Shown piece after piece: positions 2,593 through 44,765 of a stretch of 64,000 nucleotides of DNA (within the stretch, counting starts at the first letter, position 1; each line of letters begins with the position of its first letter). The translations under genes and the position numbers were made by a program. The DNA comes from Bolinopsis microptera (Eukaryota > Ctenophora > Tentaculata > Lobata > Bolinopsidae): positions 13,536,340-13,600,339 of the forward strand of contig NC_087081.1 of assembly GCF_026151205.1 (NCBI RefSeq), written 5' to 3'. The notes below the pieces were generated by a model. It was given only the letters and a program-made list of their open reading frames with translations, was not told where the DNA came from and made no database searches.

Positions 2593-3766
2593 TCATTCAT
2601 ATATCAATATTGAAATACCATGACTTGTAGAAGTTTCCACGCTGGTAATGTCAGGGAACTGATAAGACAGCTGCATTTTCGACCGGATAAATGCTCTGAA
2701 GCTAAACACGGTCAGACTATATAGATGTAGAAGTTGCTGATGGTGTTTAAAAACAGGAGCGAGAGTGCAACTCTATAAAACGTGGTGTAGAATGAACTCT
2801 TGCTCTTGTCATATACGCTGACGATAGCTATAGATTCCCTAAAACGGTAAGCAAGGTATGGTAGGAGAGACAAGCAGAAGACTGTGGCTGTAAGGACTGT
2901 TGTCGCGATCCCCTGCCACTTCAAATTTTCTCTGCTCCTGGAAACAAATTTTCTGGCTTCAATCAACAACCAAAGGGTGGTTGATACAACGAGGCATATT
3001 GGAATAAATAAAAATGGCACTGCCATAAAAGGAGACAGATAGCGATATATCTCCGATGAGAAACCATATTCGCATTGATAACCCCTATACGAAAAGAAAA
3101 CATCATCTTTATCTAAGAGAAGGAGTGTCACAGGGAAGGTGAAAGCTGCCATCCAACATATTCCGTACGCTGATCAAGTGTGCTTTCTTCGAAGTGGTCG
3201 TTCTAAATCAGAAGGGATATTTCAGGAGGAGCAGCTTGCTGGTTGTCATGGCACAGATGAGAAACACGCTCGTCAGGTAGGAATATAAGTACCTTGCATA
3301 GGATAACAAGTAGCAGAAGAATTTTCCTAGCACCTACTTATCAGAGATGATAGAGAACATATTTGGGAGAACAGCGGTAGCAGATACAATCAGGTCACAG
3401 ACTGCTATGTGCTGGATGATGACAGTGATGACTCGATGAAGATTAAAGGCCTTGTACTTTATGGATGCTATGAGAATGATTGTGTCTCCTATTAAAGATG
3501 AGGCAATGACGAATAGATAGTATCCTGCCCAAGTGTATCTTATAGCATCACTTTTAATGCCATAAGCAGTCTTGTTACTGTAATCATCAAAATATTGGGT
3601 TGTTGCAGGGACAAAAGGATTTCGCGATTATTTTGGCCAAAAATCGCGATACCGCGAATTTTAACAGACTATACATTAAACTATACATAAAATTTGTCGC
3701 AAATAATGGGAAAAATCGCAATTCCGTACATGCCGCGATTTCCTTTTGTCCCTGGGTTGTTGGCAT
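2593..3766 (-). pseudogene. Rhodopsin-class GPCR pseudogene (two nonsense codons, two frameshifts, MITE insertion)
   Basis: The minus strand encodes a once single-exon seven-helix receptor. The ATG lies at 3764-3766; after three more codons the frame is broken by a 149-bp MITE (3606-3754). It resumes with an acidic N-terminus and TM1 (YLFVIASSLIGDTIILI) and TM2 (IAVCDLIVSATAVLPNMF). A TAG at 3334-3336 stands where W would be expected (DK-stop-VLGKFFC), and a TGA at 3208-3210 where R would be expected (KYPF-stop-FRTTTSK). One frameshift lies near 3170, before TM4 (AYGICWMAAFTFP). TM5 to TM7 are then open to 2720. A second frameshift near 2720 separates SNFYIY from SLTVFSFRAFIRSKM; this tail ends at TGA 2593-2595. 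The D/ERY motif is replaced by TSK. The family resembles orphan class A receptors; the ligand is unknown. It is certainly broken as assembled. Confidence 0.85.
3606..3754. mobile_element. 149-bp hAT-type MITE inserted in GPCR pseudogene
   Basis: The ends are imperfect terminal inverted repeats beginning CAGGGACAAAAGGA and followed by TCGCG-like sequence. The element is flanked by a perfect 8-bp direct repeat GGTTGTTG (3598-3605 and 3755-3762). An 8-bp target duplication with CAGGG-type termini is the hallmark of hAT elements. Removing the element and one duplication rejoins the GPCR reading frame exactly at codon 4, which confirms it as an insertion. It has no coding capacity. Confidence 0.88.
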
Positions 3767-7913: not shown

Positions 7914-8329
7914 AGCATCAATCCTGATCTCTATGATATATTAGTAGTGACTAGCAGGAACCCGTCTAACCCTAAAGTGGTGTCAAGACTCACGAGACTA
8001 AAATAATTATTACCTATTCAATTCGCGTTTTTGACACCACTTGGGGGTCCAAATTTTGGGCTTTAAAACTCCTATTTCTTGGCCAATTTTTATTTTTTCA
8101 TGCTGATTTGAAGGCCATTAAAGCATCAATCCTGATCTCTATGATATATTAGTAGTGACTAGCAGGAACCCGTCTAACCCTAAAGTGGTGTCAAGACTCA
8201 AGAGACTAAAATAATTATTACCTATTTAATTCGCGTTTTTGACACCACTTGGGAGTCCAAATTTTGGGCTCTAAAACTCCTATTTCTTGGCCAATTTTTA
8301 TTTTTTCATGCTGATTTGAAGGCCATTAA
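7914..8329. repeat. Tandem duplication, two 208-bp copies
   Basis: Positions 7914-8121 are repeated at 8122-8329 with only a few differences. Each copy holds a short inverted repeat (AAGTGGTGTCAA and TTGACACCACTT about 60 bp apart). No coding function is seen. The low divergence suggests a recent duplication. Confidence 0.9.
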
Positions 8330-8543
8330 AGCATTTGACCCAGTCAAAAAAGTTTCAGTTGTATATCTTTTACGGTTTTTGCGGAAAGTCGTGTTAAAGT
8401 TGATGCCATTGTGTCAGTAAAATGGCACGGAACCATATACCTATGTATATATATCGTCTCGCTTTATATATAAACAAAAGCTCTAAGAAACAGATAGTAA
8501 ACAAAGTAAACATTTCTGTCCCCTAATCTTTCTCAAACAAAAG

Positions 8544-10711: not shown

Positions 10712-11811
10712 TCAGCCTCTCCTTGCAACTCGAGCAGCCAAGTCAGCAATCCTAATCCTGCGTCTTCTCCGCAACAAAAGCAAGAATTTATTTCTAGCAG
10801 ATATTAACTTAATCTTGATGAAAGCACCAAAACTTCTTATAGTTAAACAGTAAATAAATGGGTTGGCAGCACAATTAATACAAATTGAAACGAGGATATC
10901 ATCTTCAAGATCTTAAACAGTGTCTTATTTGTCTTTGTTATAAATTCAATTTCATCCTTAGAAATCAGTGTTCCTGATGTTACCGAAGAGAAAACTACAG
11001 TTGGGGCGAGCGACAACAAAAACGTTGCTGATACAACGAGGAGCGTCAAAATAGTTTGTCTCTGGATCCCCGATACTCTTTTTACAAGGAATAACATCCA
11101 AATTGTTGTTATTACAACGCACACCATGGGTATAAGCGTAAAACATATGGTAATGAATATCGGAATCAAGCGTTGGTATTTATTTAGGAAATAAAAACGA
11201 CACGTTAAAGTTTCCCCACTGAATCCATAAGGGATAAATTTAAACGATAAATCATCATGAGAAAACAGCATATTCAAGACAATAACCACAATACTTGCGG
11301 TCGATAAAGCCCACACTGCACATGAAATGATGTAGCCTCTTTTGAATCTTCGTATGTTCGATCGTAGCGGGAAAAGCAAATTATTCAATTTGTTCACATT
11401 TAGCGATGCTAGAAAACAGCTGCTAGTATACAAGAAAAATATAGCGATGATCTTTATAATCCCACAAATACGATATTTAAAATCATTCCATCTCATCGCT
11501 TCTTTCATTGCAGAGCTGAAAAGACTCAGTCCAAATCCTAGGTCCGCTAATGCCAAATTTCTAATCAGAATGATAGACACCCTGTCTAAATGGATGGCGT
11601 TGTATTTGATGGAGGAGACTAACACTATAATGTTGCCAACGGTGGAAAGGAAAGCAGTGAAGAAGAGCCAAGTGAGGATAGTAATGTGTTGTTGAGAGAT
11701 AATATGTTTAGCTTCTGGGAAAGTATCGAAGGTTTTATTGGAGAGGTTGTCAGTTGGAATTGTAGGGGAGATCAATTCGTTGGGATTTCCAATACTGGTG
11801 GTGGCTTCCAT
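10712..11811 (-). pseudogene. Rhodopsin-class GPCR, single exon, frameshifted before TM7
   Basis: Translation from ATG 11809-11811 gives 303 residues with an N-terminal tail bearing an NLS/NKT glycosylation cluster (22-27). TM1 is about 43-68, TM2 78-101 with conserved D90 in LALAD, and TM3 114-138. A C116-C204 pair suits the TM3-ECL2 disulfide. TM4 is 160-180 with W167, TM5 211-239, TM6 252-276 with P270. The DRY motif is replaced by VNKL (139-142). Near 10904 the frame shifts by one base. The next frame continues as DDILVSICINCAANPFIYC, the TM7 NPxxY motif, then a basic tail ending ARVARRG at TGA 10712-10714. The total would be about 367 residues. Everything else is intact, so this is either a young pseudogene or a 1-base assembly error. 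Ligand unknown. It shares the intronless structure and DRY loss with the pseudogene at 2593-3766, so both probably belong to one local family. Confidence 0.85.
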
Positions 11812-13695
11812 TGAAAACTGTAAGTGTAATGTAATTGTATAAAATCTATGATGGGTACCAGGAACATGTCAATGGAAAATGAACAAATAAGTAATTCATG
11901 TTGAGTGTTGACGCTATCTTCTTCTAACTCTAACTCTAAGCCCACGCCAGCCCAAAATAAATGTTAATTTTTCAATTATTCTCTCAAGGTTTAAAGGAAT
12001 TTTACTATATCCGCAATTCCCCATTCTATTGCGAATGGGCGGCGCTCGGTTTTCTTGAAAGATATGGTAGGTATAATACCGTGAAATATTTTAATAAAAA
12101 AATAATTTTCTTGGCCAATACCCGCTCAAAAGAAATGTTAACAGTTACTTTCATTTCTAAGTTTCTTGCTATAATCTTCTCAAAATGAATATAACTATCA
12201 AATCCCATCCCTATTTTTCTACAAACCATATCTATAAACTTATAAAATATAGAAGTAAAAAATTAACAAAATTGAGGAAGTTACTTTATAAAGCTTAATA
12301 AACTGGTGGGAAATGGCTTGACAGTACAAATGACTGAAGGAACTATTAGCTCTCAACTAAACACTTTGATTTATATCTGTCTTACCTGGGGACCCCAGGC
12401 TATAACGTTCACAAACATACTATAGAATAGAGAGTCGGCGGAATGACAGGCTGAGCGCCGCCCAGTAATTAAATATCTGTCAAGTTAAAGTTGTAAATCA
12501 GATGAAGCTGGTATGATAGCAAAGCCATGTGTTCAACTTATATTTATAAACTGTCAAGAAAGATTTAAAATACTTAACAAATCTACGAAATCAAACGAGC
12601 ACGTGTTTTGGTTGTGTTATGCACGTGTCATGTGATTAAAATAATCACCTTCCTTATTGGGATACACTGTCAAAAGACTCAAAACGTTATCGATATTGAA
12701 GGACGCTGACTTTTTGTATGCAAAGAAACGATAAAGAAAATGTATAGCTTTTAAAAGATATGGAACAGCTTGTTTGTTTAGTTTGTGCTTATTTCCATCA
12801 ACTTACCTCACTTTATTGCAAAATGGCTATAAATGCATAATAATAATATTCTATTTCTACTCAATCTCATAAAATTCAAAGGAAATAAATCAAAATCAAA
12901 TTCGTTAATTAATAATTTTCACAATTTATCTTATTTCACATATCTCTGGAATAAAAAGCTTGAAATTAAATTCGTAAGACAAAAGATCAAAATAGCAAAA
13001 ATTTTGTTAGCGTCACGGTTTGTGGTTACTAGCTATTTTGCATACTTTTAAAAATATCCTACAGAGCCAAACTGAATCACTGATGACATTTTTTTTGTAC
13101 GTGAAAATAATGTCAGCTGTGGCATTAAGGTCCGTGAATAATAAAGTCCGGTAATTATTTCCATTAATTTTAGTGTGTGTCCTTATACTACATATGCGTA
13201 GATATGTGTAGCCGATTACTATATTAGCTTACTAGTATACTACTACTAGGACAAATATAATCACTCATCAGTCACATACAGTAAGTTAAAGTACTTAAGT
13301 TATAGCACCATGATTACTATGACTTAAGAGTTCAAAAAAGAGTAAAACACTTATCAAAAAATCACCAAACATTTCACAATTTTTTGGAAATTTTTGGGCG
13401 GTCATGATCGTGAATAATTATGTCCGTGAAAAATTTGGTCCGTGAAAAACTTGTCCGTGACAATCATGTCCGATGAGGTAATGTATTTACGATTATTTAA
13501 TCGCAGTAGAATGACAGAATGATTAAACAAAGATATGATAGAGAGAAACTAAGTAAAACTAAATATTTGTAAAGATGGTTTCTATCCGTTTGAAGCTGCA
13601 TGTTATTGTTGTTTTTGTAGAACATTTTTCAAAGTTATAAAAGAAAAAGAGCCAAAAAAGTAATTGTTTTTGTCATAAGAGCACTATCCAAATTC
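11812..13695. other. No gene seen; two repeat signatures
   Basis: AT-rich, with no supported coding sequence. Positions about 12385-12478 share a repeat with about 40455-40560 in inverted orientation. The 8-mer GTCCGTGA occurs at 13130, 13422, 13439 and 13453, with related forms nearby. Confidence 0.45.
12385..12478. repeat. Interspersed repeat, inverted copy at about 40455-40560
   Basis: The segment from GGGGACCCCAGGCTATAA to GAGCGCCGCCCAGTAAT matches the reverse complement of 40455-40560 along most of its length, with small indels. No coding or tRNA-like features are seen. Two copies 28 kb apart suggest a low-copy mobile element family. Confidence 0.65.
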
Positions 13696-13920
13696 TCAAA
13701 TCCCTGTGTAGTCAATATAGTCGTCTTCTTTGGTGTCTCCATTGAAGTCGATGTAGTCGTTTTCCAGCCCAATAATTTCCATGCTTGGATCTACTTTTGA
13801 TACGGTATTAAGCAGCAAAATCCCTTGGGATGATTCTGGAGTCTCGAAGTGAAATTCTGTCACTAGAAATAGTATTATCATCATTAATATTTTCTTGTAA
13901 TATAACCTGTCAAAGCCCAT
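13696..13920 (-). CDS. Possible small secreted acidic protein
   Basis: From ATG 13918-13920 the frame encodes 74 residues. A basic start (MGFDRLYYKK) is followed by a hydrophobic helix (ILMMIILFLV), a plausible signal peptide. The C-terminus is acidic and tyrosine-rich (ENDYIDFNGD, EDDYIDYTGI), resembling tyrosine-sulfation motifs or a peptide precursor. No dibasic processing sites or cysteines are present in the putative mature part. It lies 241 bp downstream of the TSP1 gene stop codon on the same strand, so it could also be 3' UTR sequence or an exon of another gene. I do not recognise the family. Confidence 0.3.
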   Translation of the reverse strand: MGFDRLYYKKILMMIILFLVTEFHFETPESSQGILLLNTVSKVDPSMEIIGLENDYIDFNGDTKEDDYIDYTGI

Positions 13921-14161: not shown

Positions 14162-14358
14162 CTAACCCAAATGCAGGGCTTCTTCAGTTGTCTCCTCTGA
14201 TACTCTCTTTTGTTTCATCTGCATTATCCAGGAGTATTTCATCGCTGCTGTGATAGCGACAACCGTACAGAGAAGACCTATTAAACAGCATATGAAGATC
14301 AGGACGGGTTTGCTAAGTCCAAGCGGGCCGTCTGCAGACAAAAGAACTGGTAGTATAC
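14162..14358 (-). CDS. Terminal exon: transmembrane helix and cytoplasmic tail
   Basis: An acceptor (TTCTTCAG) precedes 14358. The exon is read in phase from the last TSP1 exon and encodes a short linker (LPVLLSADGPLGLSK), then a hydrophobic helix PVLIFICCLIGLLCTVVAIT. The tail is MKYSWIMQMKQKRVSEETTE followed by EALHLG and stop 14162-14164. The Cys pair inside the helix could be palmitoylated or dimerise; this is inference. No ITAM, kinase or death motif is seen in the tail. Confidence 0.85.
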
Positions 14359-17300
14359 CTGAAGAAATGAAGTCGTTATTTGTACATTGCGAAATTTAAT
14401 CATTGAGTTAAGTCAGAGCACAATATTTTTGCGTTGGTTGCAGAATCGCACAATTTGTCGCATTCCTTTTGAGGAAATGGCACGGAATTACATATTTGAA
14501 ACCATGATTGCATTCAATCCTCAACCTTTATGTTACCAATACCATGTTATTGCAAACCATTTGACAATTGCCATTTCTGAATCATAATGTTATAATTATT
14601 CTTTAAACTAATGTGTGAAGGTTTCATTCAGCTTCAAAGGCAAAAATTGATAAGATTAAGCCTTTTTTCTCATTATTTTAATAAATTTTTGTTTGTAATT
14701 ATGTACTTCAATTTGTAAGTAGATCTATTGGAATATGTAAATTATGAACCGATCAGCGAGATTTAAATATAACCTTACTTTTGCAACTTCCCTCACAGGA
14801 TATATTTTGTACGGTGTCACCCTCGCATTCCCTGAAACAACATCCAAATTACGATCATAAAATCGTCCGATTCATAAATGATCTTTATGGAAATAAACCG
14901 ACCATAATTTATATAATAATATATTAATTCATATCAGAAATTTGAACTCATTACAGTTACTCAAATTTTTCACTAACCGTCCAAAACAACTGGGCGAAGG
15001 ATTGTTACATGTTCTTGTTCTATTTCTAGTTTCTGTTTCACCATCACACTCGCATTTGCTCCAGTTTCCCCAATCCGACCAAATTCCGTCTACAGTTTGG
15101 CCTGAAATTTATTTTACACAAAAATGAAAACATTTTCATAACAAATCACAAAAATATTTGGGCTTGAAGAACTATAAGGATCAAAAGTATATTCTACGAG
15201 AACATGGTTATGACGCAATGAATTAGCATTTAGCATCATCGATGGTAAATACGTCAAAAAATCGCCTGTAAATACGCCGTATTCAAAAATTCTAAGAAAT
15301 ACGTGAAATACAAAATAGGCAAAATTTGGCGCTTAAATTCTTTGATGGTAAAATTTCTCAAAATACGCGCGTATCTCTTTCGAAATACGTGATTACAGAT
15401 TAGTGATATTTGCGCGTGCGTCGCTGGCCCAGTGGTATATTAATATAGCAATACTGACAGTCGTTTTGGAGACTTCACGGTGCTCGAATGAAAACGCTGC
15501 AGCGACTTGCTATTCTTATGCTGAACTGCAACCAATCAGTCGGTCTGCTGCAGAGCAGAGCTTCTCAGGTTATAAAGCAGTTATGCCTCCCTCGAGGAAT
15601 AGACTTTCAACCGAGACCCAGTTCCAGTGCATTTTTATCTATTACAATATTCGCAGACTAAGATCACAAGTCTCTCTTGCTTGAATTTTGAAACCGGTTA
15701 CCGGATTAACACGGACTTCCCAGTGGCATAAGTTTAAAAAGTGACTAGGAATCCAGCCTGGAAAGAAAAAACGGCTATAATAAACTTTTAAAACGGCTAT
15801 AATAAATTTTTCGGCCGGATGACGATTTCATTTCACCTTGCTAGTTATATTACAGAGGTATTTTTAGTTATTCATTAGTTATTCATAATTGCCAAAAAGT
15901 ATGGGAAAAAATGATCCTATCCGAGTCTCGAACTCGCAATCTGCTGATACGGAGTTAGCGTATTAACCAATTAGGCCACGATTCCATATACTGTAATGTA
16001 ATATTCATATATAGATCTTCGCGCGTTACTGCAACTTAATTTGAAATACGTAATTTATCATCGGGAAATACGTATGCGTAGTACCTACGCGTAGTCTCCC
16101 CAAAACGCATTTACCATCCTTGTTTAGCATAATATACACCTTTTTTGGATTAACCTAAAGAATCACGCGATTTTAACTGTTACAAAATATATGAAGGGAT
16201 ATCTATATCTTACTCACAGCATGAATCATGACATGTTCCATTATCAACCAAGTCTCCTTCACAGTTGCTGTATGATAAAAGAATTATAACTCTAGGTTTT
16301 AGACAATTACAAAACGATGCAAACAGCAAATGATTGACTTGAAATAGAGAAAAAACGATCGTCTTGAAACCTTAGATATCCATACCTTCCATAACAGAAA
16401 GGTGCCGGGTTGGTACAAGATCTAGTTCTGTTCCATGTTCCTGTTCCTGTAGTGTGATCACACTCACACGTACTCCAGTTTCCCCAATCAGTCCAATTTC
16501 CGTTCACAGTTTGACCTGAAAAATAATGAAAATGAATTATATTTTGTCGACTTATCAAGTGATATTTTAGTTCATGTATCATGAAAATTGTTCCTGAATC
16601 GTAGTTGATTGAAATAATTTTCAGCATAAGAATTTTTTTTTGCCTTTTTAGATTTACAACGTGGTATTCCACCAATACCAAGATTTTGCCCTACATTTGA
16701 TTGTATGTACTTACAACACTGATCATCGCATGTTCCATTGTCCTTAACGTTTCCCTCGCAGTCACTGGAATGTTCATTGTTTTGGTTTTTTGGTAGTTTC
16801 ATGTTTAAAGTTGAAAGTTAAACTCATTATGAATGAATAGTCATGAAAGAATTATAAATGAACTATAATGAATTAAGAATCCTTCGACAATTCGTGGTCT
16901 AAAAAATAAATTTCAACAGTAAAACTACCTTCCATAACAGAAAGGTGCCGGGTTGGTACAAGATCTAGTTCTGTTCCATGTTCCTGTTCCTGTAGTGTGA
17001 TCACACTCACACGTACTCCAGTTTCCCCAATGGCTCCAGTTTCCGACCACAGTTTTACCTGAAAATAGTTATAGGAATTAAATCATGTTATTGTTGACTT
17101 ATTTATAGTTCGATATTTTTTAAAAAGTTTATGTATCTTGAAAACTGGATTTTAATCTAAGTTGATCTGGAAGATTTTTAACAGAACGTACATTTGTAAA
17201 ATGATGTGTCACACAAATTTAGATCAGGGTCCTTTATAGTTTGATCGAATTTACTTACAGCACTGATCATTGCAAGTTCCATTATTGATAACTGCTCCTT

Positions 17301-20300
17301 CGCAGTCACTGAAATGTTCATTAGGTTATGTCACAATTTTGGTGTTCTGACGTTAACTGTTATGAATCAATAAACATGAATGAATAATGAATCCGAGTTA
17401 AAAACGATGCATAAAATTACCTTCCATAACAGAAAGGTGCCGGGTTGGTACAAGATCTAGTTCTGTTCCATGTTCCTGTTCCTGTAGTGTGATCACACTC
17501 ACACGTACTCCAGTTTCCCCAATCAGTCCAATCTCCGTCCACAGTTTGACCTGAAAACAAGAATGACAATATTAACCATTTCTTTACTTAGCAATGATAT
17601 TTTCGTAAAGGTCTGTTTACCTAAAATTTGCTTCTTTCATAATTAATATTCAGTAGAATGGTCTTTAATTGCTCAACAACTGAATCAAGATTGGGATCAG
17701 TTATAGTATCTTTAGTTTGATTATGTGTACTTACAGCACTCATCATCACATGTTCCATTATTGTTTATTTCTCCTTCGCAGTCACTGAAATGTTCGCAAA
17801 GTTATGTATTGGTGCTATGATAGTTTTACGTTGAACGTTAAATGTTATGAACCAATAATCATGAATAAATCATGAAATAATCATGAATGAATTATCAATC
17901 CGAGTTAAAAACGATGCATAAAACTACCTTCCATAACAGAAAGGTGCCGGGTTGGTACAAGATCTAGTTCTGTTCCATGTTCCTGTTCCTGTAGTGTGAT
18001 CACACTCACACGTACTCCAGTTTCCCCAATCAGTCCAATCTCCGTCCACAGTTTGACCTGAAAACAAGAATGAAAATATTAACCATTTCTTTACTTATCA
18101 ACTTTATTTTCGTAAAGGTCTGTTTACCTAAAATTTGCTTCTTTCATAATTAATATTCAGTAGAATGGTCTTTAATTGCTCAACAACAGAATCAAGATTG
18201 GGGTCAGTTATAGTATCTTTAGTTTGATTGTGTGTACTTACAGCACTGATCATCACATGTTCCATTATTGTTTACTTCTCCTTCGCAGTCACTGAAATTG
18301 GTGCTATGATAGTTTTACGTTGAACGTTAAATGTTATGAACCAATAATCATGAATAAATCATGAAAGTATCATGAATGAATAATGAATCCGAGTTAAAAA
18401 TCTATGCATAAAATTACCTTCCATAACAGAAAGGTGCCGGGTTGGTACAAGATCTAGTTCTGTTCCATAATCCTGTTCCTGTAGTGTGATCACACTCACA
18501 CGTACTCCAGTTTCCCCAATCAGTCCAATCTCCGTCCACATTTTGACCTGAAAACAAGAATGAAAATATTAACCATTTCTTTACTTATCAATGATATTTT
18601 CGTAAAGGTCTGTTTACCTAAAATTTGCTTCTTTCATAATTAATATTCAGTAGAATGGTCTTTTATTGCTCAACAACTGAATAAAGATTGAGATCAGTTA
18701 TAGTATCTTTAGTTTGATTGTGTGTACTTACAGCACTGATCATCACATGTTCCATTATTGTTTATTTCTCCTTCGCAGTCACTGAAATGTTCGCAAAGTT
18801 ATGTATTGGCGCTATGATAGTTTTACGTTGAACGTTAAATGTTATGAACCAATAACCATGAATAAATCATGAAAGTATCATGAATGAATAATGAATCCGA
18901 GTTAAAAACGATGCATAAAATTACCTTCCATAACAGAAAGGTGCCGGGTTGGTACAAGATCTAGTTCTGTTCCATGTTCCTGTTCCTGTAGTGTGATCAC
19001 ACTCACACGTACTCCAGTTTCCCCAATCAGTCCAATCTCCGTCCACAGTTTGACCTGAAAACAAGAATGACAATGTTAACCATTTCTTGACTTATCAATG
19101 ATATTTTCGTAAAGGTCTGTTTACCTAAAATTTGCTTCTTTCAAAGTTAATATTCAGTAGAATGGTCTTTAATTGCTCAACAACTGAATCAAGATTGGGG
19201 TCAGCAGTTATAGTATCTTTAGTTTGATTGTGTGTACTTACAGCACTGATCATCACATGTTCCATTATTGTTTACTTCTCCTTCGCAGTCACTGAAATTG
19301 GTGCTATGATAGTTTTACGTTGAACGTTAAATGTTATGAACCAATAATCATGAATAAATCATGAAAGTATCATGAATGAATAATGAATCCGAGTTAAAAA
19401 TCTATGCATAAAATTACCTTCCATAACAGAAAGGTGCCGGGTTGGTACAAGATCTAGTTCTGTTCCATGTTCCTGTTCCTGTAGTGTGATCACACTCACA
19501 CGTACTCCAGTTTCCCCAATCAGTCCAATCTCCGTCCACAGTTTGACCTGAAAACAAGAATGACAATGTTAACCATTTCTTGACTTATCAATGATATTTT
19601 CGTAAAGGTCTGATTACCTAAAATTTGCTTCTTTCAAAGTTAATATTCAGTAGAATGGTCTTTAATTGCTCAACAACTGAATCAAGATTGGGGTCAGTTA
19701 TAGTATCTTTAGTTTGATTATGTGTACTTACAGCACTGATCATCACATGTTCCATTATTGTTTATTTCTCCTTCGCAGTCACTGAAATGTTCGCAAAGTT
19801 ATGTATTGGTGCTATGATAGTTTTACGTTGAACGTTAAACTGTTAAATGTTATGAATCAATAACCATGAATGAATCATGAAATAATCATGAATGAATTAT
19901 GAATCCGAGTTTTAAAAAACGATGCATAAAACTACCTTCCATAACAGAATGGTGCCGGGTTGGTACAAGATCTAGTTCTGTTCCATGTTCCTGTTCCTGT
20001 AGTGTGATCACACTCACAAGTACTCCAGTTTCCCCAATCAGTCCAATCTCCGTCCACAGTTTGACCTGAAAACAAGAATGACAATATTAATCATTTCTTT
20101 ACTGATCAATGATATTTTCGTAAAGGTCTGTTTACCTAAAATTTGCTTCTTTCATAATTAATATTCAGTAGAATGGTATTTAATTGCTCAACAACTGAAT
20201 AAAGATTGGGGTCAGTTATAGTATCTTTAGTTTGATTGTGTGTACTTACAGCACTGATCATCACATGTTCCATTATTGTTTATTTCTCCTTCGCAGTCAC

Positions 20301-23300
20301 TGAAATGTTCGCAAAGTTATGTATTGGTGCTATGATAGTTTTACGTTGAACGTTAAATGTTATGAACCAATAACCATGAATAAATCATGAAAGTATCATG
20401 AATGAATAATGAATCCGAGTTAAAAATCTAGGCATAAAACTTAAAAACTACCTTCCATAACAGAAAGGTGCCGGGTTGGTACAAGATCTAGTTCTGTTCC
20501 ATGTTCCTGTTCCTGTAGTGTGATCACACTCACACGTACTCCAGTTTCCCCAATCAGTCCAATCTCCGTCCACAGTTTTACCTGAAAACAAGAGTGACAA
20601 TATTAACCATTTCTTTACTTATCAATGATATTTTCGTAAAGGTCTGTTTACCTAAAATTTGCTTCTTTCATAATTAATATTCAGTAGAATGGTCTTTAAT
20701 TGCTCAACAACAGAATCAAGATTGGGATCAGTTATAGTATCTTTAGTTTGATTGTGTGTACTTACAGCACTGATCATCACATGTTCCATTATTGTTTATT
20801 TCTCCTTCGCAGTCACTGAAATGTTCGCAAAGTTATGTATTGGTGCTATGATAGTTTTACGTTGAACGTTAAATGTTATGAACCAATAATCATGAATAAA
20901 TCATGAAATAATCATGAATGAATTATCAATCCGAGTTAAAAACGATGCATAACATTACCTTCCATAACAGAAAGGTGCCGGGTTGGTACAAGATCTAGTT
21001 CTGTTCCATGTTCCTGTTCCTGTAGTGTGATCACACTCACACGTACTCCAGTTTCCCCAATCAGTCCAATCTCCGTCCACAGTTTGACCTGAAAATGAAA
21101 AAAATCATTTTGTTGCTTACTTAACAATAAATAATATTATTAAAGTCCAAGTATCTTAAAACTGCACATACGATTAATGTTCAGGAATCAGGAGAATGTA
21201 TTTGGTTGTTACACGTTGGTGCTCCACAACTGACTCAAGATTGCGTGGTCAGTTATAGTATCTTTAGTTTGATTGTGTGTACTTACAGCACTGATCATCA
21301 CATGTTCCATTATTGTTTATTTCTCCTTCACAGTCACTGAAATGTTCGCAAAGTTATGTAAATATTTTGGTGTTCTGATAGTTTACGTTGAACGTTCACT
21401 GTTATGAAAGTATGAATCAATCATGAATTATGAATCCGATTAAAAAACATACGCACAAAAGTTAAAACTACCTTCCATAACAGAAAGGTGCCGGGTTGGT
21501 ACAAGATCTAGTTCTGTTCCATGTTCCTGTTCCTGTAGTGTGATCACACTCACACGTACTCCAGTTTCCCCAATTAGTCCATCCTCCATCTACATTGTGA
21601 CCTGTTGCATTTGCATGGATAAGTCATTGAATCACTTTCCTCTCAATTTCATCTTTTTCGAATATCTTCGTGAGAATGTTCATCGAGATTTGAGTTTTAT
21701 GTCTTGAAAAAGTAATATTTTACAAATTGAGATTTGATTTTATCAAGAAATCGGATATCTACAACATATTTAAAATTATATTTAAAAATACGTCCGCGAA
21801 TTTGGCGGCAGAATTTATGGAAACGTTTTTGAAACGAGCAAAATATCGCTAAACAAAAAGACGCCGAAAATGTGATCCAGGCAAAATTAATGCATGGCTC
21901 TTGTGTTGCAAATTTTTGAGAAAATTTTCCAATTTCTGTATTTCTTCTTAACACCTTTTTAAAAAAATTACAAAAACAATATTTAAGGAAAATCGTAAAC
22001 TTCGACTAATTGACAATTAACTGTAAAGTAATAGTTTCCGTTGGCATTCTGGCAGTGCCTATTCTATTTCTAGGGAGTGAGCTTAAGATTCTGTTAAATC
22101 TAAGCAAATTTTCCTCGGCTGACTCGGCCGAACGATCGGGAAACCGTTATTGACAGTTAAATAAGCAGCTGCCCATCGCAGCAAAGCCTCGGGCGAATAA
22201 AGTATGGAATACACTTTCTTAACCGACACTTGCTTAATTGTTATTGTACCATCGGCTACTGAAGGTGAGCGGTCACATTGTAATCATATGGCTGTTTGGA
22301 TAAACCGAAGTAAAATAAGTATCTAGATTAAGGATATTTGCAGAAACCTTTCAAATTCAAACTTTCACCATTAGTTATAGCTATCCAAAGATCAGATCTA
22401 AATGTATAAATAATGATAATAATAAAGTGATTATAAAGTGACGGTAAACGAAGTGAATACAATAAAATATAGTGTGATAATAATCATAGTGTGATTAAAA
22501 TTTAACAAAATCAAGAACTTACAGCAAAGATGGTGACAGGTGCCGTTTTCTAGTTGATGACCAGTACAGTCACTGAAATCAAATGAGGAGTTAAAGTGCT
22601 TACTATCTTATAATAATAATATCTGCACGGAGCATATTTCCTCATAAAATCAAACATTTGACATAAAAAATGTGCTTGTAACGCGATATACATTATACCT
22701 GTCGTAAATTGGCCCTCGTACGACTACGACATACCTGTCGTATTTACGAAAGATAGATGCACACATCAAAATGGTACAAGTATGGTGTAACAGTTGTAAC
22801 GATAGATAGATATTTACAGTAAATTATAAATTATAACTTATTTCATAACTGGGATTTCGTGTCGATAATCACCTTCCATGACAAGAAGGTGCCGGGTCGG
22901 TACAAGATCTAGTTCTGTTCCATGTTCCTGTTCCTGTAGTGTGATCACACTCACACGTACTCCAATACTCCCAATCAGTCCAACCCCCTTCTACAGTTAC
23001 ACCTGAAACAATTTCTTTTTACGCTTCATTTCAAGCGTGGGGTCCCCAGGTAAGCATTCCTTTATCACCGTCTGTTTTGTTTTTAATTGATCTAAATATA
23101 AAATATGTTGACTTACAGCACTGATCATCACAAGTTCCTTCGTCTGTAAGATCGCCTACACAGTCCCTGAAGTGGTTTGGTACTTTAGTTTTTTCCAAAG
23201 CAACTTTAATTTAAGTATTTTATTTTTGCAAAGATCTCAAAACATGCTGCCTTTAGACGAAGTTTTATTTTTACCTTCCATAACAGAAAGGTGCCGGGTT

Positions 23301-26300
23301 GGTACAAGATCTAGTTCTGTTCCATGTTCCTGTTCCTGTAGTGTGATCACACTCACACGTACTCCAGTCACCCCAAGTTGTAAGACCTCCATCAACTGTT
23401 TGACCTAAGATTAAAAGATTAAAGCACCAGCAAAGGAAATCTTTTACAATTGTAAATCGCATTTATAACATTTAAATTCGTTCATAGTTTTTTGGCATGT
23501 CTTGGATAAACGTATTGGTATGGGTAATATTTCACCATTAATCCTATAAATAGAAATGTTTTCAAACTCACAGCATTGGTTATCACATCTACCATTGTCC
23601 AATAAGTCTCCTACGCAATCACTGAATTTCATGATGTTTCATTATTCTTATTTTCCATATGAAGGGCCATAGACATTTGGATTTATTAATTACTGAGTTA
23701 AGGCAACAAAATTTTAAAAATAGCTTTGATATATCAGAGAATTAAAAAAAGAGAAATGAATACAAACAGTAAAACTACCTTCCATAACAGAAAGGTACCG
23801 GGTAGGTACAAGATCTAGTTCTGTTCCATGTTCCTGTTCCTGTAGTGTGATCACACTCACACGTACTCCAGTTTCCCCAAGTTGTAAGACCTCCATCAAC
23901 TGTTTGACCTAGGATTAAAGCATCAACAAAGGAAATTGTTGGACGTCATCGTTCTAAACTATTGTCTTCTAATTCGATGTTCGAACCATAAATTTAAATG
24001 AGATTTATCCGTTTAAATTTGTATCTTTTCCTTCGTTCTTCAAGTATATCACGAATACGGACACTGGGCAATTGTTTGAATACTAATTTTGTTAAGATTA
24101 CAAATGAGTAGTAACTCACAGATTTGACAAACGTCCTGGGTAATTTCATCATTAATATTATAAATAGATATGTTTTCAAACTCACAGCATTGTTCATCGC
24201 ATCTACCATTGTCCACTAGGTCTCCTTCACAATCACTGAATTGTATGGTATTATAAAAATGCCAAAAAGATTTTAAACAATGCTAACAACAAAGGAGTAA
24301 GAACACAATCAACTCCATCTTGGATGTTTTTATGAAAACAACCAACAAGAATTTGTTCTTTACCTTCCATAACAGAAAGGTGCCGGGTTGGTACAAGATC
24401 TAGTTCTGTTCCATGTTCCTGTTCCTGTAGTGTGATCACACTCACACGTACTCCAGTTTCCCCAAGTCGTAAGACCTCCATCAACTGTTTGACCTAGGAT
24501 TACAACATTATCAAAGGAAATTATTGAACATTTTCATCGTTTGAAACTTATTATGCTTTTTAATGAGATGTTCGAACTATAAATTGAAATGGAATTTAAC
24601 TGTTTGAATGTTTCTTATTTCCTTCGTTCTTTAGTATGTTTTGAAAACAGATACTGGGCAATTTTACCATCAATTGTTTGAATACAAATTTTGTCAAGAT
24701 CACAAAAGTAATAACAGTAGTGACTTACAGCATTGTTCATCGCATCTACCATTGTCCACTAGGTCTCCTTCGCAATCACTGAATTTTATGGTATTATAAA
24801 AATTCCAAAAAGATTTTAAACAATGCTAACAACAAAGGAGTAAGAACACAATCAACTCCATCTTGGATGTTTTTATGAAAACAACCAACAAGAATTTGTT
24901 CTTTACCTTCCATAACAGAAAGGTGCCGGGTTGGTACAAGATCTAATTCTGCTCCATGTTCCTGTTCCTGTAGTGTGATCACACTCACACGTACTCCAAT
25001 CACCCCAAGTCGTAAGACCTCCATCAACTGTTTGACCTAGGATTAAAGCATCAGCAAAGGAAATTGTTGAACATTTTCATCGTTTGAAACTTATTATGCT
25101 TTTTAATGAGATATTCGATCTATAAATTGAAATGGAATTTAACTGTTTGAATGTTTATTATTTCTTTCGTTCTTTAGTATGTTTTGAAAACAGATACTGG
25201 GCAATTTTACCATTAATTGTTTGAATACAAATTTTGTCAAGATCACAAAAGTAATAACAGTAGTGACTTACAGCATTGTTCATCGCATCTACCATTGTCC
25301 ACTAGGTCTCCTTCGCAATCACTGCATTTTATGGTATTTAAAAAAAATGCCAAAAAGATTTTAAACAATGCTAACAACAAAGGAGTAAAAACACAATCAA
25401 CTCCATCTTGGATGTTTTTATGAAAACAACCAACAAGAATTTGTTCTTTACCTTCCATAACAGAAAGGTGCCGGGTTGGTACAAGATCTAATTTTGCTCC
25501 ATGTTCCTGTTCCTGTAGTGTGATCACACTCACACGTACTCCAATCACCCCAAGTTGTAAGACCTCCATCAACTGTTTGACCTGTAATTCAGTTAGTCAT
25601 TGAATTCGGCTATACATTTAACATTTACTAAGTATACCAGACATAAACATCTTATGAAATAATTAAATGATCTTCACTCCTCGTGAACATTTATTTGATT
25701 ATACTTGTTATAGTGGAGAAAGCTACAGAAAATGTACAAGGATGATTTATGGTGTACAAAACTTTCAATAAGAGACTTACAGCACTGACTGTCACAACTT
25801 CCCGTATCCGTAACGCTCCCAACGCAAGAATTTCCATGACAAGAAGGAGAAGGACTGGTACAAGATCTGGATCTAGACCAAGTTCCTGTACCAAGAGCGT
25901 GGTTACAGGAACAGGTTCCCCAGCTACCCCAGTTAGAAAACCCTCCGTGCACTGTCATACAGCACTGACTGTCACAACTCCCTGACATTGAGGCAGATCC
26001 CAGACATGAACTGTGGGTTGAGAAGTCGTTGCTATTTTAATTCACTAAGGTCTTCAAAATTCTAATCAGATTTAACTTTATGTCACCATTATGGAAAGTT
26101 TTGAAATAATTAGGATAGTTCAAAGATGCTAACCTGCCACCACAAGAAGGAGCAGGACTGTTGCAAGATCTGGAGCGAGTCCAAGTACCAGTACCGGTGG
26201 CATGGTTACAGGAACAACTACTCCAACCGCCCCAACCAGACCAGGCTCCGTTAGTGATACGACAACACTGACTGTCACAACTTCCTGTATCCCTAACGCT

Positions 26301-28458
26301 CCCAACGCAAGAATTTCCATGACAAGAAGGAGAAGGACTGGTACAAGATCTGGATCTAGACCAAGTTCCTGTACCAAGAGCGTGGTTACAGGAACAGGTT
26401 CCCCAGCTACCCCAGTTAGAAAACCCTCCGTGCACTGTCATACAGCACTGACTGTCACAACTCCCTGACATTGAGGCAGATCCCAGACATGAACTGTGGG
26501 TTGAGAAGTCGTTGCTATTTTAATTCACTAAGGTCTTCAAAATTCTAATCAGATTTAACTTTATGTCACCATTATGGAAAGTTTTGAAATAATTAGGATA
26601 GTTCAAAGATGCTAACCTGCCACCACAAGAAGGAGCAGGACTGTTGCAAGATCTGGAGCGAGTCCAAGTACCAGTACCGGTGGCATGGTTACAGGAACAA
26701 CTGCTCCAACCGCCCCATCCAGACCAGGCTCCGTTAGTGATACGACAACACTGACTGTCACAACTTCCTGTATCCCTAACGCTCCCGACGCAAGAATTGC
26801 CACGACAAGAAGGAGAAGGGCTGGTACAAGATCTGGATCTAGACCAAGTTCCTGTACCAAGAGCGTGGTTACAGGAACAGGTTCCCCAGCTACCCCAGTT
26901 AGAAAACCCTCCGTGCACTGTCATACAGCACTGACTGTCACAACTCTCTGACATTGAGGCAGATCCCGGACATGAACTGTGGGTTGAGAAGTCGTTACGA
27001 TTTAATTCACTAAAGTCTTCAAATTTCTAATCAGATTAAACTTTATATCACCACCATGGAAAGTTTTGAAACAATTTAGATTTGAAGAACTTAGGATAAT
27101 TCAAAGATGCTAACCTGCCACCACAAGAAGGAGTAGGACTGTTGCAAGATCTGGACCGAGTCCAAGTACCAGTACCGGTGGCATGGTTACAGGAACAACT
27201 ACTCCAACCGCCCCATCCAGACCAGGCTCCGTTAGTGATACGACAACACTGACTGTCACAAGGTCCTGTATCCCTAACGCTCCCAACGCAAGAATTGCCA
27301 TGACAAGAAGGAGAAGGACTGGTACAAGATCTAGATCTAGACCAAGTTCCTGTACCAAGAGCGTGGTTACAGGAACAGGTTCCCCAGCTACCCCAGTTAG
27401 AAAATCCTCCGTGCACTGTCTTACAGCACTGACTGTCACAACTCCCTGACATTGAGGCGGATCCCGGACATGAACTGTGGGTTGAGAAGTCGTTAAGATT
27501 ATAATTCACTAAAGTCTTCAAACTTCTAATCAGATTAAACTTTAAATTTCACCATCATGGAACGTTTTGAAAAATGTTGATTTGAAGAACTTAAGATAGT
27601 TCAAAGATGCTAACCTGCCACCACAAGAAGGAGCAGGACTGTTGCAAGATCTGGAGCGAGTCCAAGTACCAGTACCGGTGGCATGGTTACAGGAACAACT
27701 ACTCCAACCGCCCCATCCAGACCAGGCTCCGTTAGTGATACGACAACACTGACTGTCACAACTTCCCGTCATAATGGACGAACCTGGACAACCGCTGTTG
27801 GATATTTTGGTTAACATCACCAATGCATTGATATTTCAGCAAAGGAATCTTTGGCTTCATTAGACCAAGTCACAAAGCATTTAGTTTTTAATGATTGAGG
27901 TACCAATGATATTTTTCTGCGTAGAAACATTATTCAATGATCGAATCGTTAACGATGAATTTTACCGAACCTGCCACCACAGTATGGAGTAGGACTGTTG
28001 CAGGATCTGGAGCGAGTCCAAGTACCAGTACCAGTAACATGGTTACAGGAACAACTGCTCCAACCACCCCAGCCACCCCATCCTCCATTCCTTGCATAGC
28101 CTAGGTGATCATATCAGATATTTCGATTTCATCAAATGACCGTATATAGATAATCTGCTAATTATTTTGATTAGGTTTTTAGCTTTTCAGGGATAAGCTA
28201 AACAGTGATCCTATCACCTATATACTCAATTCAAACGTTTCCCAACCGATCTTTAATATTCAATTATCAACGGTTTTATAAAGACAGTTTGCAATGTATA
28301 TGTTGGGATGATTTTAAATTAGGAGCAATAAAATTTGACATATCTACTGAGATTGGTTTGCACTTACATGATGGGGTCCTTCTTCGTCTTCTACGTCTTC
28401 TCCACGAGCCTACATCGACAACAAGGCAGAATAGAATTAACAAAATCCAAAGCCGCAT
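14162..28458 (-). CDS. Single-pass membrane protein with about 27 TSP1 repeats, 44 exons
   Basis: The gene is assembled from splice sites and phases. Exon 1 is 28368-28458. Six exons follow: 27971-28100, 27615-27794, 27115-27474, 26617-26976, 26134-26493 and 25781-26010. Then come 18 exon pairs and a terminal exon at 14162-14358. The coding lengths sum to 5145 nt, that is 1714 residues plus stop. The order is signal peptide, eight Arg, about 27 TSP1 repeats, TM helix, and a tail of about 20 residues. Repeats have the W-x-x-W-x-x-W motif (a known C-mannosylation consensus) and six or more Cys, but CSVTCG is replaced by C-(E/S)-C-(D/N)-H, so the usual O-fucosylation site is missing. The probable role is a cell-surface adhesion or recognition receptor; no enzyme domain is seen. 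Every module is class 1-1 or 2-2, so duplication keeps frame. I have not seen transcript data, and alternative exon use is likely. The family is certain; the exact exon set is strongly supported. Confidence 0.88.
14779..15101 (-). CDS. TSP1 repeat, last (divergent) exon pair
   Basis: The exons are 14978-15101 (124 nt) and 14779-14831 (53 nt). They encode CQTVDGIWSDWGNWSKCECD, then a shortened loop (GETETRNRTRTCNNPSPSCF), and RECEGDTVQNISCEGSCK. The pair is 6 nt shorter and 3 nt longer than the standard 130/50 exons, yet the phases are kept. It is the most divergent of the 18 pairs and directly precedes the TM exon. Confidence 0.85.
15237..16122. mobile_element. 886-bp hAT-like non-autonomous element in TSP1 gene intron
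   Basis: The left end CATCGATGGTAAATACGT and the inverted right end CAAGGATGGTAAATGCGT agree at 15 of 18 positions. A perfect 8-bp duplication TTTAGCAT flanks it (15229-15236 and 16123-16130). Those are hAT features. It sits in the intron between exons 15101 and 16218. The interior has a tRNA-Arg-like segment (15913-15985) and an open frame (15403-15684) that I do not recognise. No transposase is visible. Confidence 0.7.
15913..15985 (-). pseudogene. tRNA-Arg(CCG)-like sequence, degenerate
   Basis: The minus strand reads GTGGCCTAATTGGTTAA for the D arm, an anticodon loop CTCCGTA (CCG), then CAGCAGATTGCGAGTTCGAG with box B. This is close to animal tRNA-Arg(CCG). The acceptor arms GGAATCG and ATAGGAT do not pair and the anticodon stem has a mismatch, so a working tRNA is unlikely. 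It lies within the hAT-like element and could be a captured tRNA gene or a SINE head. Confidence 0.6.
16218..25581 (-). CDS. TSP1 exon-pair array: 17 repeats of 130 + 50 nt exons
   Basis: The 130-nt exons end (low coordinate) at 25452, 24907, 24364, 23779, 23275, 22873, 21472, 20959, 20452, 19936, 19418, 18925, 18418, 17928, 17421, 16929 and 16386. Each is followed by a 50-nt exon ending at 25272, 24729, 24186, 23572, 23117, 22523, 21287, 20766, 20250, 19732, 19242, 18732, 18242, 17735, 17259, 16715 and 16218. Each pair encodes about 60 residues: a segment like CQTVDGDWTDWGNWSTCECD, then HTTGTGTWNRTRSCTNPAPF and CYGR, then SDCEGEINNNGTCDDQCC. The NRT sequon sits in the 130-nt exon of 15 of these 17 (not in the two nearest 25 kb). 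Phases are 1 into the first exon, 2 between, 1 out. All donors begin GT and all acceptors end AG. Confidence 0.88.
16929..21601. repeat. Tandem array of about 490-520-bp units (exon pair plus introns)
   Basis: From about 17421 to 21088 the distance between successive 130-nt exons is 507, 490, 507, 493, 518, 516 and 507 bp. Both introns are also nearly identical among copies, for example the run TTTCGTAAAGGTCTGTTTAC in most units. The units at either end (16929, 21472) have diverged introns but near-identical 130-nt exons. This is a recent expansion by unequal crossing-over. Confidence 0.92.
22114..22335 (+). mobile_element. Second SINE copy, head missing or diverged, in TSP1 gene intron
   Basis: The body matches that of the SINE at 9379-9741: GCAGCAAAG(C/T)CTCGG, AAAGTATGG, TTAACCG, and the tail GTAAAATAAGT with (A/G)TCTAGAT. 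It lies in the intron between exons 22523 and 21601 and is antisense to the gene. The tRNA-like head is not recognisable. Confidence 0.75.
24186..25581. repeat. Tandem array of about 543-545-bp units
   Basis: The three exon pairs starting at 25581, 25036 and 24493 are spaced 545 and 543 bp apart and share long intron stretches, including the segment encoding an alternative-frame open reading frame. It is an independent duplication block within the same gene. Confidence 0.88.
25781..28100 (-). CDS. N-terminal TSP1 module: six exons, nine TSP1 cores
   Basis: Exons 27971-28100, 27615-27794, three of 360 nt (27115-27474, 26617-26976, 26134-26493) and 25781-26010. The type A core is GAWSGWGGWSSCSCNHATGT followed by GTWTRSRSCNSPAPSCGGR; type B is GGFSNWGSWGTCSCNHALGT then GTWSRSRSCTSPSPSC. 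Each is closed by GSCDSQCC. The 360-nt exons carry one B and one A core with no internal intron. Introns are phase 2 until the last, which is phase 1 and links to the paired-exon array. The 360-nt exons and their introns repeat at 498 and 483 bp and are nearly identical, so this block expanded very recently and separately from the downstream array. Confidence 0.88.
28368..28458 (-). CDS. Exon 1: signal peptide and eight arginines
   Basis: ATG 28456-28458 gives MRLWILLILFCLVVDVGSW, a clear signal peptide, then eight consecutive Arg and TPS. The exon ends in phase 1 at a consensus donor GTAAGT (28362-28367). The first C of the next exon completes the codon. A GTG and TTG lie in frame upstream, but ATG at 28458 is the natural start. 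The Arg run could be a furin-type site or a basic N-terminus after signal removal. Confidence 0.8.
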
Positions 28459-29556: not shown

Positions 29557-31185
29557 TTACTCTCTTTTCTCTCTAACTATCCCGGTTCCTTGAGTCTTCT
29601 TAAAATAAGTCCACCCAAAATTAACCACCTTTTTTCCAATGGTCCACACGAAAATTAAAGCCGCTAGAAAAGCAACAAATATAGCTGCCAGAATGTCAAT
29701 ATTGTAAATCTCTACAGTAGTTTGTCGGCCGATCACTTCATTCCTCAAAAAGTTGAGATTCCCGAACTCCATTAGATGATTGCAATGAAAAACTAAATTA
29801 TCTCCCGGTGTGGCTGGATTTAGTAAAACAGCAGAGGACCCAGCGTGCAGACTTTCAATGTACTTCTTTTGATTCTCTAACATTTGTGTAACCATCTGCT
29901 CCAATGCCTCATGAGAGAAATCTTCTTTCAGCAGCATCTCTCCAAAATGATTCCTTTTGACGAGAAGAGAGTTGAAATACTGGTCGGTGAACAGTGGAAT
30001 GCACAACAAGGGTACTTTGTGAAGGACCGATTCGATCTTGGCATTGTTTCCACAGGAAGATACAAACAGCGATACAGTGGAGCTTGCTAGCAGCGCTCGC
30101 TGGGGGAGCCAGGATTTTGAGAGGACGTTTGCATGATTAGAGTATTCTACGTCACTGCGCACTATTATCACTGCATCATCTGATTTTTGTAGTGTCTCAA
30201 AGAATTCTTCCCCAAACATTGATTGGTAATGGTCGAGCGAAAAAGCTAAGGTTCCAAGATTTACGTAGATTATGTGCTTTCCTCGTTTCTTGGCTGATTC
30301 CACGAACTTTGATACGTCACTACCTAATGGTTCAGATGGATTCTTTAATCCTATTCCAGCTATGTTGAGAGAATTGGGCGCCCTTAAGTATGGAAAAGAT
30401 AAAGCCGGATGATCGTTCACTAGATACAGCTGAGTCATATTATCCAAATCAGTCAGTCCAATCAACCCTTCTTCCGCCAAATACCCAGCCATAATGTTCA
30501 TAATTCCAGGAACTAAATTAAAAACGAAACTTCCGAGCTCCACAAAGAGTTGAATTCTTTGCAAGAAAGTGGGAGGTATTGATCCCTGAATGTTGAGAAA
30601 CTGTGAAGCCTCACTGGTTAGAAGTGCTGGAAGGTTCTGCTCATGTTTCGCTCTCTGCTGGTCCACCACAGATATTGCTGTCACCAAGGGTATGCTGTGT
30701 TTTCGTGCTATCACCGCGATAGGGTGGAAGATGGTTTCCTCTACAACAACCAGATCAAATTGTGTGTTTTCCATCATACCCATCATTTCAACCCCGAAGA
30801 AATAATCAAATCGTAGTTTTATTTGTTTGAGAGTTTCTCCTAAGATCACCGAGTTTCCTGTTATGCTCCTGCTGATAAGTTTATCAGAAGAACCATCCAA
30901 AGCACCTGATTTCACCGCAACTTCATTCAAGTACTTCAAACCTCTGATATCCTGAGAAATATTGGTCGGCACCAGATACCGGATATTCCTGGGCACCGGA
31001 ATGTCTGGATCGTGAAGCAGAGCTAGGAAAGTCACATTATGTCCGGAATCAGCCAGAGTAGCTGCAATGTTTAGAAGGTAGGCGAAGTGTCCGCCTCTCC
31101 AGGGTGTTGTGACAAGGATGTTCTTTGTGAAGGAGCAAGTGGAGGAATGGTAGAGGGATAGCAGAAGTATTAATAGTGGCACCAT
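29557..31185 (-). CDS. UDP-glycosyltransferase (GT1 family), membrane-bound
   Basis: One open exon of 542 residues. A signal peptide (1-18) leads to a lumenal acceptor domain with the HF pair expected for the catalytic base (GGHFAYLLN, H33). The C-terminal donor domain contains VNLGTLAFS (308-316), WLPQRALL (359-366), and PLFTDQYFNS (397-406), the usual D-Q contact with the UDP sugar. A TM helix lies at about 496-516, and a basic tail ends REKRE; a dilysine-like KKTQ occurs at 529-532. In UGTs the reaction is transfer of a sugar from a UDP-sugar to small lipophilic acceptors in the ER lumen. The signature HGG is replaced by SSCG (376-379), so the residue that normally contacts the diphosphate is changed. 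Start ATG 31183-31185; the frame is intact. Substrate unknown. Confidence 0.88.
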   Translation of the reverse strand: MVPLLILLLSLYHSSTCSFTKNILVTTPWRGGHFAYLLNIAATLADSGHNVTFLALLHDPDIPVPRNIRYLVPTNISQDIRGLKYLNEVAVKSGALDGSSDKLISRSITGNSVILGETLKQIKLRFDYFFGVEMMGMMENTQFDLVVVEETIFHPIAVIARKHSIPLVTAISVVDQQRAKHEQNLPALLTSEASQFLNIQGSIPPTFLQRIQLFVELGSFVFNLVPGIMNIMAGYLAEEGLIGLTDLDNMTQLYLVNDHPALSFPYLRAPNSLNIAGIGLKNPSEPLGSDVSKFVESAKKRGKHIIYVNLGTLAFSLDHYQSMFGEEFFETLQKSDDAVIIVRSDVEYSNHANVLSKSWLPQRALLASSTVSLFVSSCGNNAKIESVLHKVPLLCIPLFTDQYFNSLLVKRNHFGEMLLKEDFSHEALEQMVTQMLENQKKYIESLHAGSSAVLLNPATPGDNLVFHCNHLMEFGNLNFLRNEVIGRQTTVEIYNIDILAAIFVAFLAALIFVWTIGKKVVNFGWTYFKKTQGTGIVREKRE

Positions 31186-31723
31186 CTTTCTAGGTAAAAG
31201 TAAATTTAATGTCAGTTCATGTAGAATTAGAATAATCCAAAAACGTATTCCTCCACAATAGATTGTCTCAATTCAATCTGGTTCATCGAGCTAAAACATG
31301 GCAAAATATAAATATTGGGGGGAAAATGCGTCGATAACTAATGCCATCGAGTGGTGAGAAATTAATATTCCACATCTAACCATAAATTAGATTAGAGTAA
31401 TAAGATAAGAGAAATTTTGGTATACAATTACAGTTTAAGCACTTAACTGTTAAAATTAAAGCAAGTAATAAATCATAGTTATGTAAATGTAATACCTTAT
31501 CGGACTTTATTTTAACAGACATTAATTGGACGCTGGATACCCTACCGTTCATTTTATCCGTTTATTCATCTCAATTCATCATCTATTTTCTGGAAAGTTT
31601 ATCAACCCAGTTGAAATGATAATACTGATCAAATGATCAAATAGAACTGGTTGGAGAAACATTAATCAGTTTATTAGTTAAATAGGTAATAAGTTAATAG
31701 GTTGCACGTTACTGTGATTCTGG

Positions 31724-44679: not shown

Positions 44680-44693
44680 CGCGCCATGGCAAC
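44680..44693 (+). promoter_or_regulatory. RFX X-box-like site upstream of ciliary gene
   Basis: CGCGCCATGGCAAC matches the palindromic RFX consensus GTTGCCATGGCAAC at 11 of 14 positions, with the right half and centre perfect. It ends 73 bp before the ATG of the CIMIP2-like gene. RFX factors control many ciliary genes through sites at this distance. Binding is inferred. Confidence 0.5.
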
Positions 44694-44765
44694 GCTGGCA
44701 ACAAGCTTCGTGCGTGTGAATTTTACTCATTTTTACTCAAATCACATACCGTATACTTCGTTAAT

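Follow-up and report, generated by a model that had tools for sequence, protein, structure and literature searches.

A ctenophore gene for a predicted type I membrane protein with 27 thrombospondin type 1-like repeats, a nearly uniform exon core and a tyrosine-bearing tail

The window, by which we mean the whole 64,000-nt stretch of DNA analyzed here (37.1% GC, free of N), carries on its minus strand a long gene of thrombospondin type 1 repeats (TSRs) whose parts are listed in Table 1. Beside it lies a single ORF of 571 aa (29557-31272, minus strand) that matches the UDP-glucuronosyl/glucosyl transferases (PF00201, E 4.7e-24), and a single ORF of 312 aa on the plus strand (44607-45545) matches CMI2B-like (PF10629, E 8.1e-24), a family of ciliary microtubule inner proteins. 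Two further minus-strand ORFs (10843-11868 and 2712-3173) resemble seven-helix receptors by eye and have no Pfam match at E <= 0.01, and a 208-bp unit is present at 7914-8334 in two copies that are 98% alike. The first-pass annotation of this DNA had pointed to cnidarian protein sets for comparison, but the host is a ctenophore and a cnidarian origin is rejected: the best PDB match of a glutamate receptor exon is ML032222a (2.8e-62, against 5.4e-46 at best for vertebrate receptors), and the next distinct PDB protein is a "glutamate receptor kainate-like protein" (4zdm), which we take to be a Pleurobrachia protein. Among 32 matches there are glutamate-receptor genes with frames of 900 aa and more, some of them clustered (e.g., C12:11782391-11809362; C1-C13 are the numbered large contigs, by which the paralogs discussed below are also named). 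In the passages of PMC6278862 at hand, ML identifiers denote gene models of Mnemiopsis.

Table 1. Parts of the TSR gene, in the order of transcription (positions are those of the window).
Feature	Position	Strand	Basis
Exon 1: predicted signal peptide, run of 8 Arg, then TPSC	28368..28458	-	Exon chain; similar first exons in C6 and C12 paralogs
Exon 2: initial part of first TSR	27971..28100	-	Exon chain
Block 1, exons 3-7 (180, 360, 360, 360, 230 nt): repeats 2-9 and the remainder of repeat 1, in fused exons free of N-glycosylation sequons	25781..27794	-	
Block 2, exons 8-17: repeats 10-14	23117..25581	-	Exon chain
Exons 18-19: repeat 15; flanks divergent, core probably homogenized over most of its length	22523..23002	-	
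Exons 20-41: repeats 16-26; within them, exons 22-37 make up block 3 proper (spacing 490-518 nt)	16218..21601	-	
Exons 42-43: repeat 27, the last, a divergent TSR	14779..15101	-	Exon chain
Exon 44: predicted transmembrane (TM) helix; stop at 14162 by read-through, or spliced at 14167 (G|GTTAGA)	14162..14358	-	Exon chain, hydropathy
Exon 45 (new): putative cytoplasmic tail ...LENDYIDFNGDTKEDDYIDYTGI and stop	13696..13862	-	Homologous tail exons in C10a and C10b

An independent exon-by-exon rebuild reproduced the 44-exon chain proposed earlier: read on the minus strand from 28458 to 14162 it comprises 5145 nt, that is, 1714 codons and a stop, with no internal stop, GT-AG borders at all introns and agreement of phase, again without a stop, at 43 of 43 exon junctions. 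From exon 8 onward, exons of 130 nt (124 nt in exon 42) that are entered in phase 1 and left in phase 2 alternate with exons of 50 nt (53 nt in exon 43) that are entered in phase 2 and left in phase 1; since these phases are complementary, in-frame duplication is possible for the two-exon pair only. With the donor T|GT[AG]AGT at exon 7 and at the seventeen 50-nt exons of exons 8-41, the frame closes. The chain starts with a hydrophobic segment (MRLWILLILFCLVVDVGS) and has a single strongly hydrophobic segment near its C-terminus (19-residue mean hydropathy up to 2.95 at residue 1668). Both ends of the claimed course from signal peptide to TM helix were recovered, but position 14162 is most likely not the end of the gene, which appears to continue into exon 45. 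Judged by hydropathy and exon chain, the protein would combine a signal peptide, TSRs, one TM helix and a cytoplasmic tail, as a transmembrane TSR-only receptor does.

The exon chain and the repeats bear out the first-pass view that tandem expansion of TSRs built a type I membrane protein, and support a single long protein. That the locus instead holds several smaller genes, as introns of 921 and 1116 nt inside the gene might suggest, or an array mis-assembled from fewer repeats, is improbable given the unbroken phase of the junctions and a window without N. Moreover, the copies can be told apart by their differing introns, copies of the 92-nt exon core described below at 96% identity or more are confined to this locus (40 scored of 67 candidates), and the order of parts is the same in the paralogs examined.

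About 27 TSP1 repeats had been announced, and 27 TSR-like repeats were counted, 26 of them exactly 60 aa long and the last, repeat 27, shorter and more divergent than the others. With two repeats as queries, phmmer against PDB returned TSRs of thrombospondin-1 (E 1.6e-26 for 7yyk, 8.6e-18 for 1lsl) and of properdin (E 3.4e-19), all with a large bias correction, and by this comparison with PDB TSRs the repeats qualify as TSR homologs. The profile search proposed earlier stayed below threshold: two test pieces scored 16.8 and 18.2 bits with Pfam TSP_1 (PF00090), against a curated cut-off of 21.6. Repeats 2-26 have 8 Cys each, six of which align with the TSR set (by eye on the PDB alignments) and two of which are extra. 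Of the 17 repeats encoded by exons 8-41, 12 have the first Trp of the WxxWxxW ladder and the five of block 2 have Leu there. The motif CSVTCG, the CD36 site and an O-fucose consensus, is absent from the repeats, which have C-x-C in that place. At E <= 0.001 one repeat has at least 150 matches in the genome (all 150 scored of 868 candidates, the window's own included). Over the genome searches taken together, the contigs with matches were C1-C13 and C81.

N-glycosylation sequons divide the array into a head of 9 TSRs that lack them and a stalk of 18 TSRs of which 16 have them, the first two block 2 repeats being without. Repeats 1-9 (571 residues, exon 1 included) contain none, against a shuffled mean of 7.6, and repeats 10-26 contain 42, against a shuffled mean of 17.4 and a maximum of 26 in 500 shuffles. 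On this distribution, the protein may carry an unglycosylated head on a glycan-clad rod. If a TSR measures about 5.5 nm in length, 27 of them would span roughly 150 nm.

The spacings reported for three repeat blocks (483/483/498, 543/545 and 490-518 nt) were confirmed. That the blocks expanded independently holds in part: the introns of blocks 2 and 3 look separate, but a nearly identical exon core is common to both. We compared the 17 exon pairs of exons 8-41, counting 5 units in block 2 and 8 in block 3. Between the two blocks, pS was 0.72 in the first 12 codons, 0.013 in the next 30 and 0.68 in the 50-nt exon, with pN of 0.22, 0.023 and 0.21, respectively; for the other 4 units against all, pS was 0.50, 0.022 and 0.71 in the same three parts. 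A 92-nt core is identical in 11 of 17 units. As this core had first been picked by eye, a run test across the whole exon pair was added: the longest identical run between the block 2 and block 3 consensus sequences is 97 of 180 nt, at 25 differences in all, which was reached in 0 of 20,000 shuffles, and when third positions alone were taken, their own longest run was reached in 1 of 20,000. The synonymous sites rule out plain purifying selection on the protein as the cause of this uniformity. Block 3 itself is young, given that its own introns are 0.93 and 0.89 identical, and one might take both blocks for young duplicates in which no conversion occurred. We regard this as very improbable, for between blocks 2 and 3 the identity of the intron after the long exon is 0.629 when aligned and 0.637 when shuffled, that of the intron after the 50-nt exon is 0.706, slightly above the 0.665 of shuffled sequence, and pS outside the core is about 0.7. 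Nearly saturated synonymous sites, and introns that align at the shuffled level or barely better, around a near-identical core point to short-tract gene conversion; blocks 2 and 3 have probably been homogenized with each other after they formed.

Eight other loci were examined, namely two inverted genes on C4 (C4m and C4p), C7, two genes on C10 (C10a and C10b), C12, C6 and C11. Wherever the 3' end was reached (C4m, C4p, C7, C10a, C10b and C6), the array is followed by a divergent last repeat and a hydrophobic helix, and in C4m, C4p and C7 modules resembling Ephrin_rec_like and PAN precede the helix, both below the Pfam cut-offs in the C4 sequences tested. A first exon like that of the window gene (hydrophobic start, Arg run, SC) precedes C6 and C12 and was not found in the upstream stretches covered for C4m, C4p, C7, C10a, C10b and C11. 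At C6:14739445-14762516, 46 matched TSR places form one array, in which the frames of 14762201, 14760633 and 14759892 break off, maybe through decay, assembly errors or real gene ends. Directly after the donor of the last TSR exon of C10a, TACGTATGTAG-like units form a run (on C10, about 11088840-11089140).

Against C4m, C4p and C7, pS is 0.75-0.77 in the first 12 codons and 0.75-0.76 in the short exon, 0.37, 0.37 and 0.15 in codons 13-23, 0.10, 0.10 and 0.17 in codons 24-38, and 0.83-0.87 in codons 39-42. The core is common to the other chromosomes only in part, codons 13-23 and 39-42 having diverged. In this cross-locus comparison some partner exons skip to a later exon, and one exon served two C10b units. 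The exon pattern caught 4 units in C10a, 5 in C10b, 4 in C12, 1 in C6 and none in C11, which makes these rows weak; with just 4, 4 and 1 exons, pS in codons 24-38 is 0.76, 0.52 and 1.09 against C10a, C12 and C6. Ectopic short-tract conversion would explain the partial sharing, and the core may perhaps be converted with genes on other chromosomes. Alternatively, the core could be held uniform by selection on its nucleotide sequence, for instance if small exons depend on it as a splicing enhancer (GGAACAGGAACATGGAACAGAAC-like). In favor of such selection, the consensus sequences of the window gene, C4m and C4p agree over a 41-nt stretch, from which C7 departs by one change, and pS of codons 24-38 against C4m, C4p and C7 is low; however, C10a, C12 and C6 give no sign of it, within their few exons, core pN (0.023) is not below core pS (0.013), and exon 18, which matches the core except near its 3' end, fits a conversion tract with an internal end. 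We consider selection of this kind unlikely as a replacement for conversion, while nucleotide-level constraint may act within the sub-family of the window gene, C4m, C4p and C7.

The two C4 genes bear on repeat number. This inverted pair has 21 (C4m) and 15 (C4p) matched units, mostly 432-445 nt apart, with one 832-nt interval in C4p that may hide another unit; a narrower pattern gave 20, 13 and 9 units in C4m, C4p and C7, against 21, 15 and 10 with the wider one. Their units are as similar between the genes (0.952) as within them (0.954), with no positional pairing. The flanks are 98.65% identical on the 3' side and 86.98% on the 5' side (a crude cut), and as the two values disagree the age of the C4 duplication is uncertain. 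The pair supports the view that repeat number is labile within one genome.

The C-terminus of the window gene changes when exon 45 is included. From the donor at 14167 the frame joins exon 45 in phase 1, giving 1768 aa instead of 1714 and a tail ENDYIDF...DDYIDY with two tyrosines, in YIDF and YIDY. A search of the 264.65-Mb genome with GARAAYGAYTAYATNGAYTWY (codons for ENDY[IM]D[FY]) gave 3 matches: the window exon, C10:11090202 and C10:11108115. All three are last exons of TM-TSR genes, and the reversed pattern has no match. In C10a, a shorter gene of the TM-TSR kind, the TM exon likewise ends in phase 1 and continues into DTVTPLEAAQ...DAIENDYMDFTEL, and the C6 gene, when spliced, ends in ...YENESEFENAYATFTA (terminus FENAYATFTA) after a phase-1 intron, as in the other tail genes. 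On these predicted splices, four genes (the window gene, C10a, C10b and C6) share ENxYxxF at their C-terminus or close to it; no tail of this type was found for C4m, C4p and C7 in the 3' DNA examined at each locus. The 1714-codon model is probably truncated at its C-terminus, lacking exon 45, and the stop at 14162 is rejected as the sole gene end on account of this exon and its homologs. As a donor, GTTAGA falls short of a strong consensus, and the gene may also give a short form that stops at 14162.

Such a form, stopping about 37 residues past the helix, would suit a protein that is mainly a structural or secreted adhesive, a mucus, colloblast or tentacle product with a minor or cleaved anchor and a non-signaling tail. 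In its favor, TSP1 (PF00090) is named in the available passages of PMC6278862 as one of four domains common to the ToxProt, colloblast and tentacle gene sets of a ctenophore. We think this role doubtful, given that the tail motif is retained in four genes whose tails otherwise differ.

Our preferred reading, to which we assign a probability of roughly 0.6, is that the gene encodes a ctenophore type I receptor-like surface protein with tandem repeats, whose core is kept by conversion and whose length changes by unequal exchange. It draws on what can be read directly in the DNA, namely the exon chain, the repeats and their TSR homology, the helix, the common tail motif, the paralogs and the uniform core; from these we infer a role as an adhesion or recognition receptor. 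Signal peptide, Arg run, 9-TSR head, 18-TSR stalk, one TM helix and a short two-tyrosine tail would follow one another in this order. As an extended rod, the repeats would hold the head out towards a ligand, whether this sits on another cell, on the matrix or on a particle. Upon binding or clustering, the tail would be phosphorylated and dock SH2 domains, or be endocytosed through YxxF-type sorting. Unequal exchange would change the length of the array. Short-tract gene conversion within the gene, and perhaps with genes on other chromosomes too, would keep the 92-nt core uniform as the introns and the remaining exon parts diverge. A bolder and rather speculative extension is that these genes make up a recognition receptor family of the ctenophores' own, in which ectopic conversion would spread core cassettes across chromosomes, unequal exchange would alter rod length, individuals would differ in the reach and the binding surface of the receptor, and a conserved ENxYxxF tail would serve as the readout. 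The locus is open to test on two counts, as a candidate rod-like receptor of variable length and as a short stretch of exon that has stayed uniform next to diverged introns, perhaps between chromosomes as well.

Several known systems share single features with this gene. ITAM-bearing immunoreceptors have a short tail with two spaced tyrosines and a hydrophobic or aromatic residue at +3, and the window tail is alike in both tyrosine features; however, the ITAM motif is YxxL/I-x(6-12)-YxxL/I, with L or I at +3, from which the window tail (YIDF-x8-YIDY) departs by its F and Y, and the other three tails of the family show one such tyrosine. Properdin and thrombospondin-1 provide the best group of PDB matches and likewise have tandem TSRs, but properdin is secreted and has few of them, and both proteins lack a TM helix and a tyrosine tail and have CSVTCG where the ctenophore gene has C-x-C. 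Ctenophore mega-thrombospondins are likewise extracellular and thrombospondin-named, but what defines them in the passages of PMC6526912 is a thrombospondin C-terminal region combined with LRR and cadherin/Ig domains, and not an array of TSRs. Among the matches listed for TSR arrays, allorecognition and TSR conversion, the titles, abstract openings and passages contain no description of a ctenophore family of TSR-array receptors. Another parallel is with the TSR-only proteins of anthozoans, which consist of little more than TSR arrays and of which one genome encodes many (Neubauer et al., 2017, PMC5446238); a transmembrane one from Aiptasia larvae is cited there (Wolfowicz, 2016). They resemble the ctenophore genes in their TSR arrays, their number per genome and at least one membrane-anchored member; but their TSRs, from a different phylum, have six Cys and CSVTCG where the ctenophore repeats have eight Cys and C-x-C, and the published description, as far as available, gives them neither a tyrosine tail nor core homogenization. 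Measured against these sources, a TSR-only repertoire with a TM member is known, and the eight-Cys C-x-C repeat, the common tyrosine tail and the uniform core are new.
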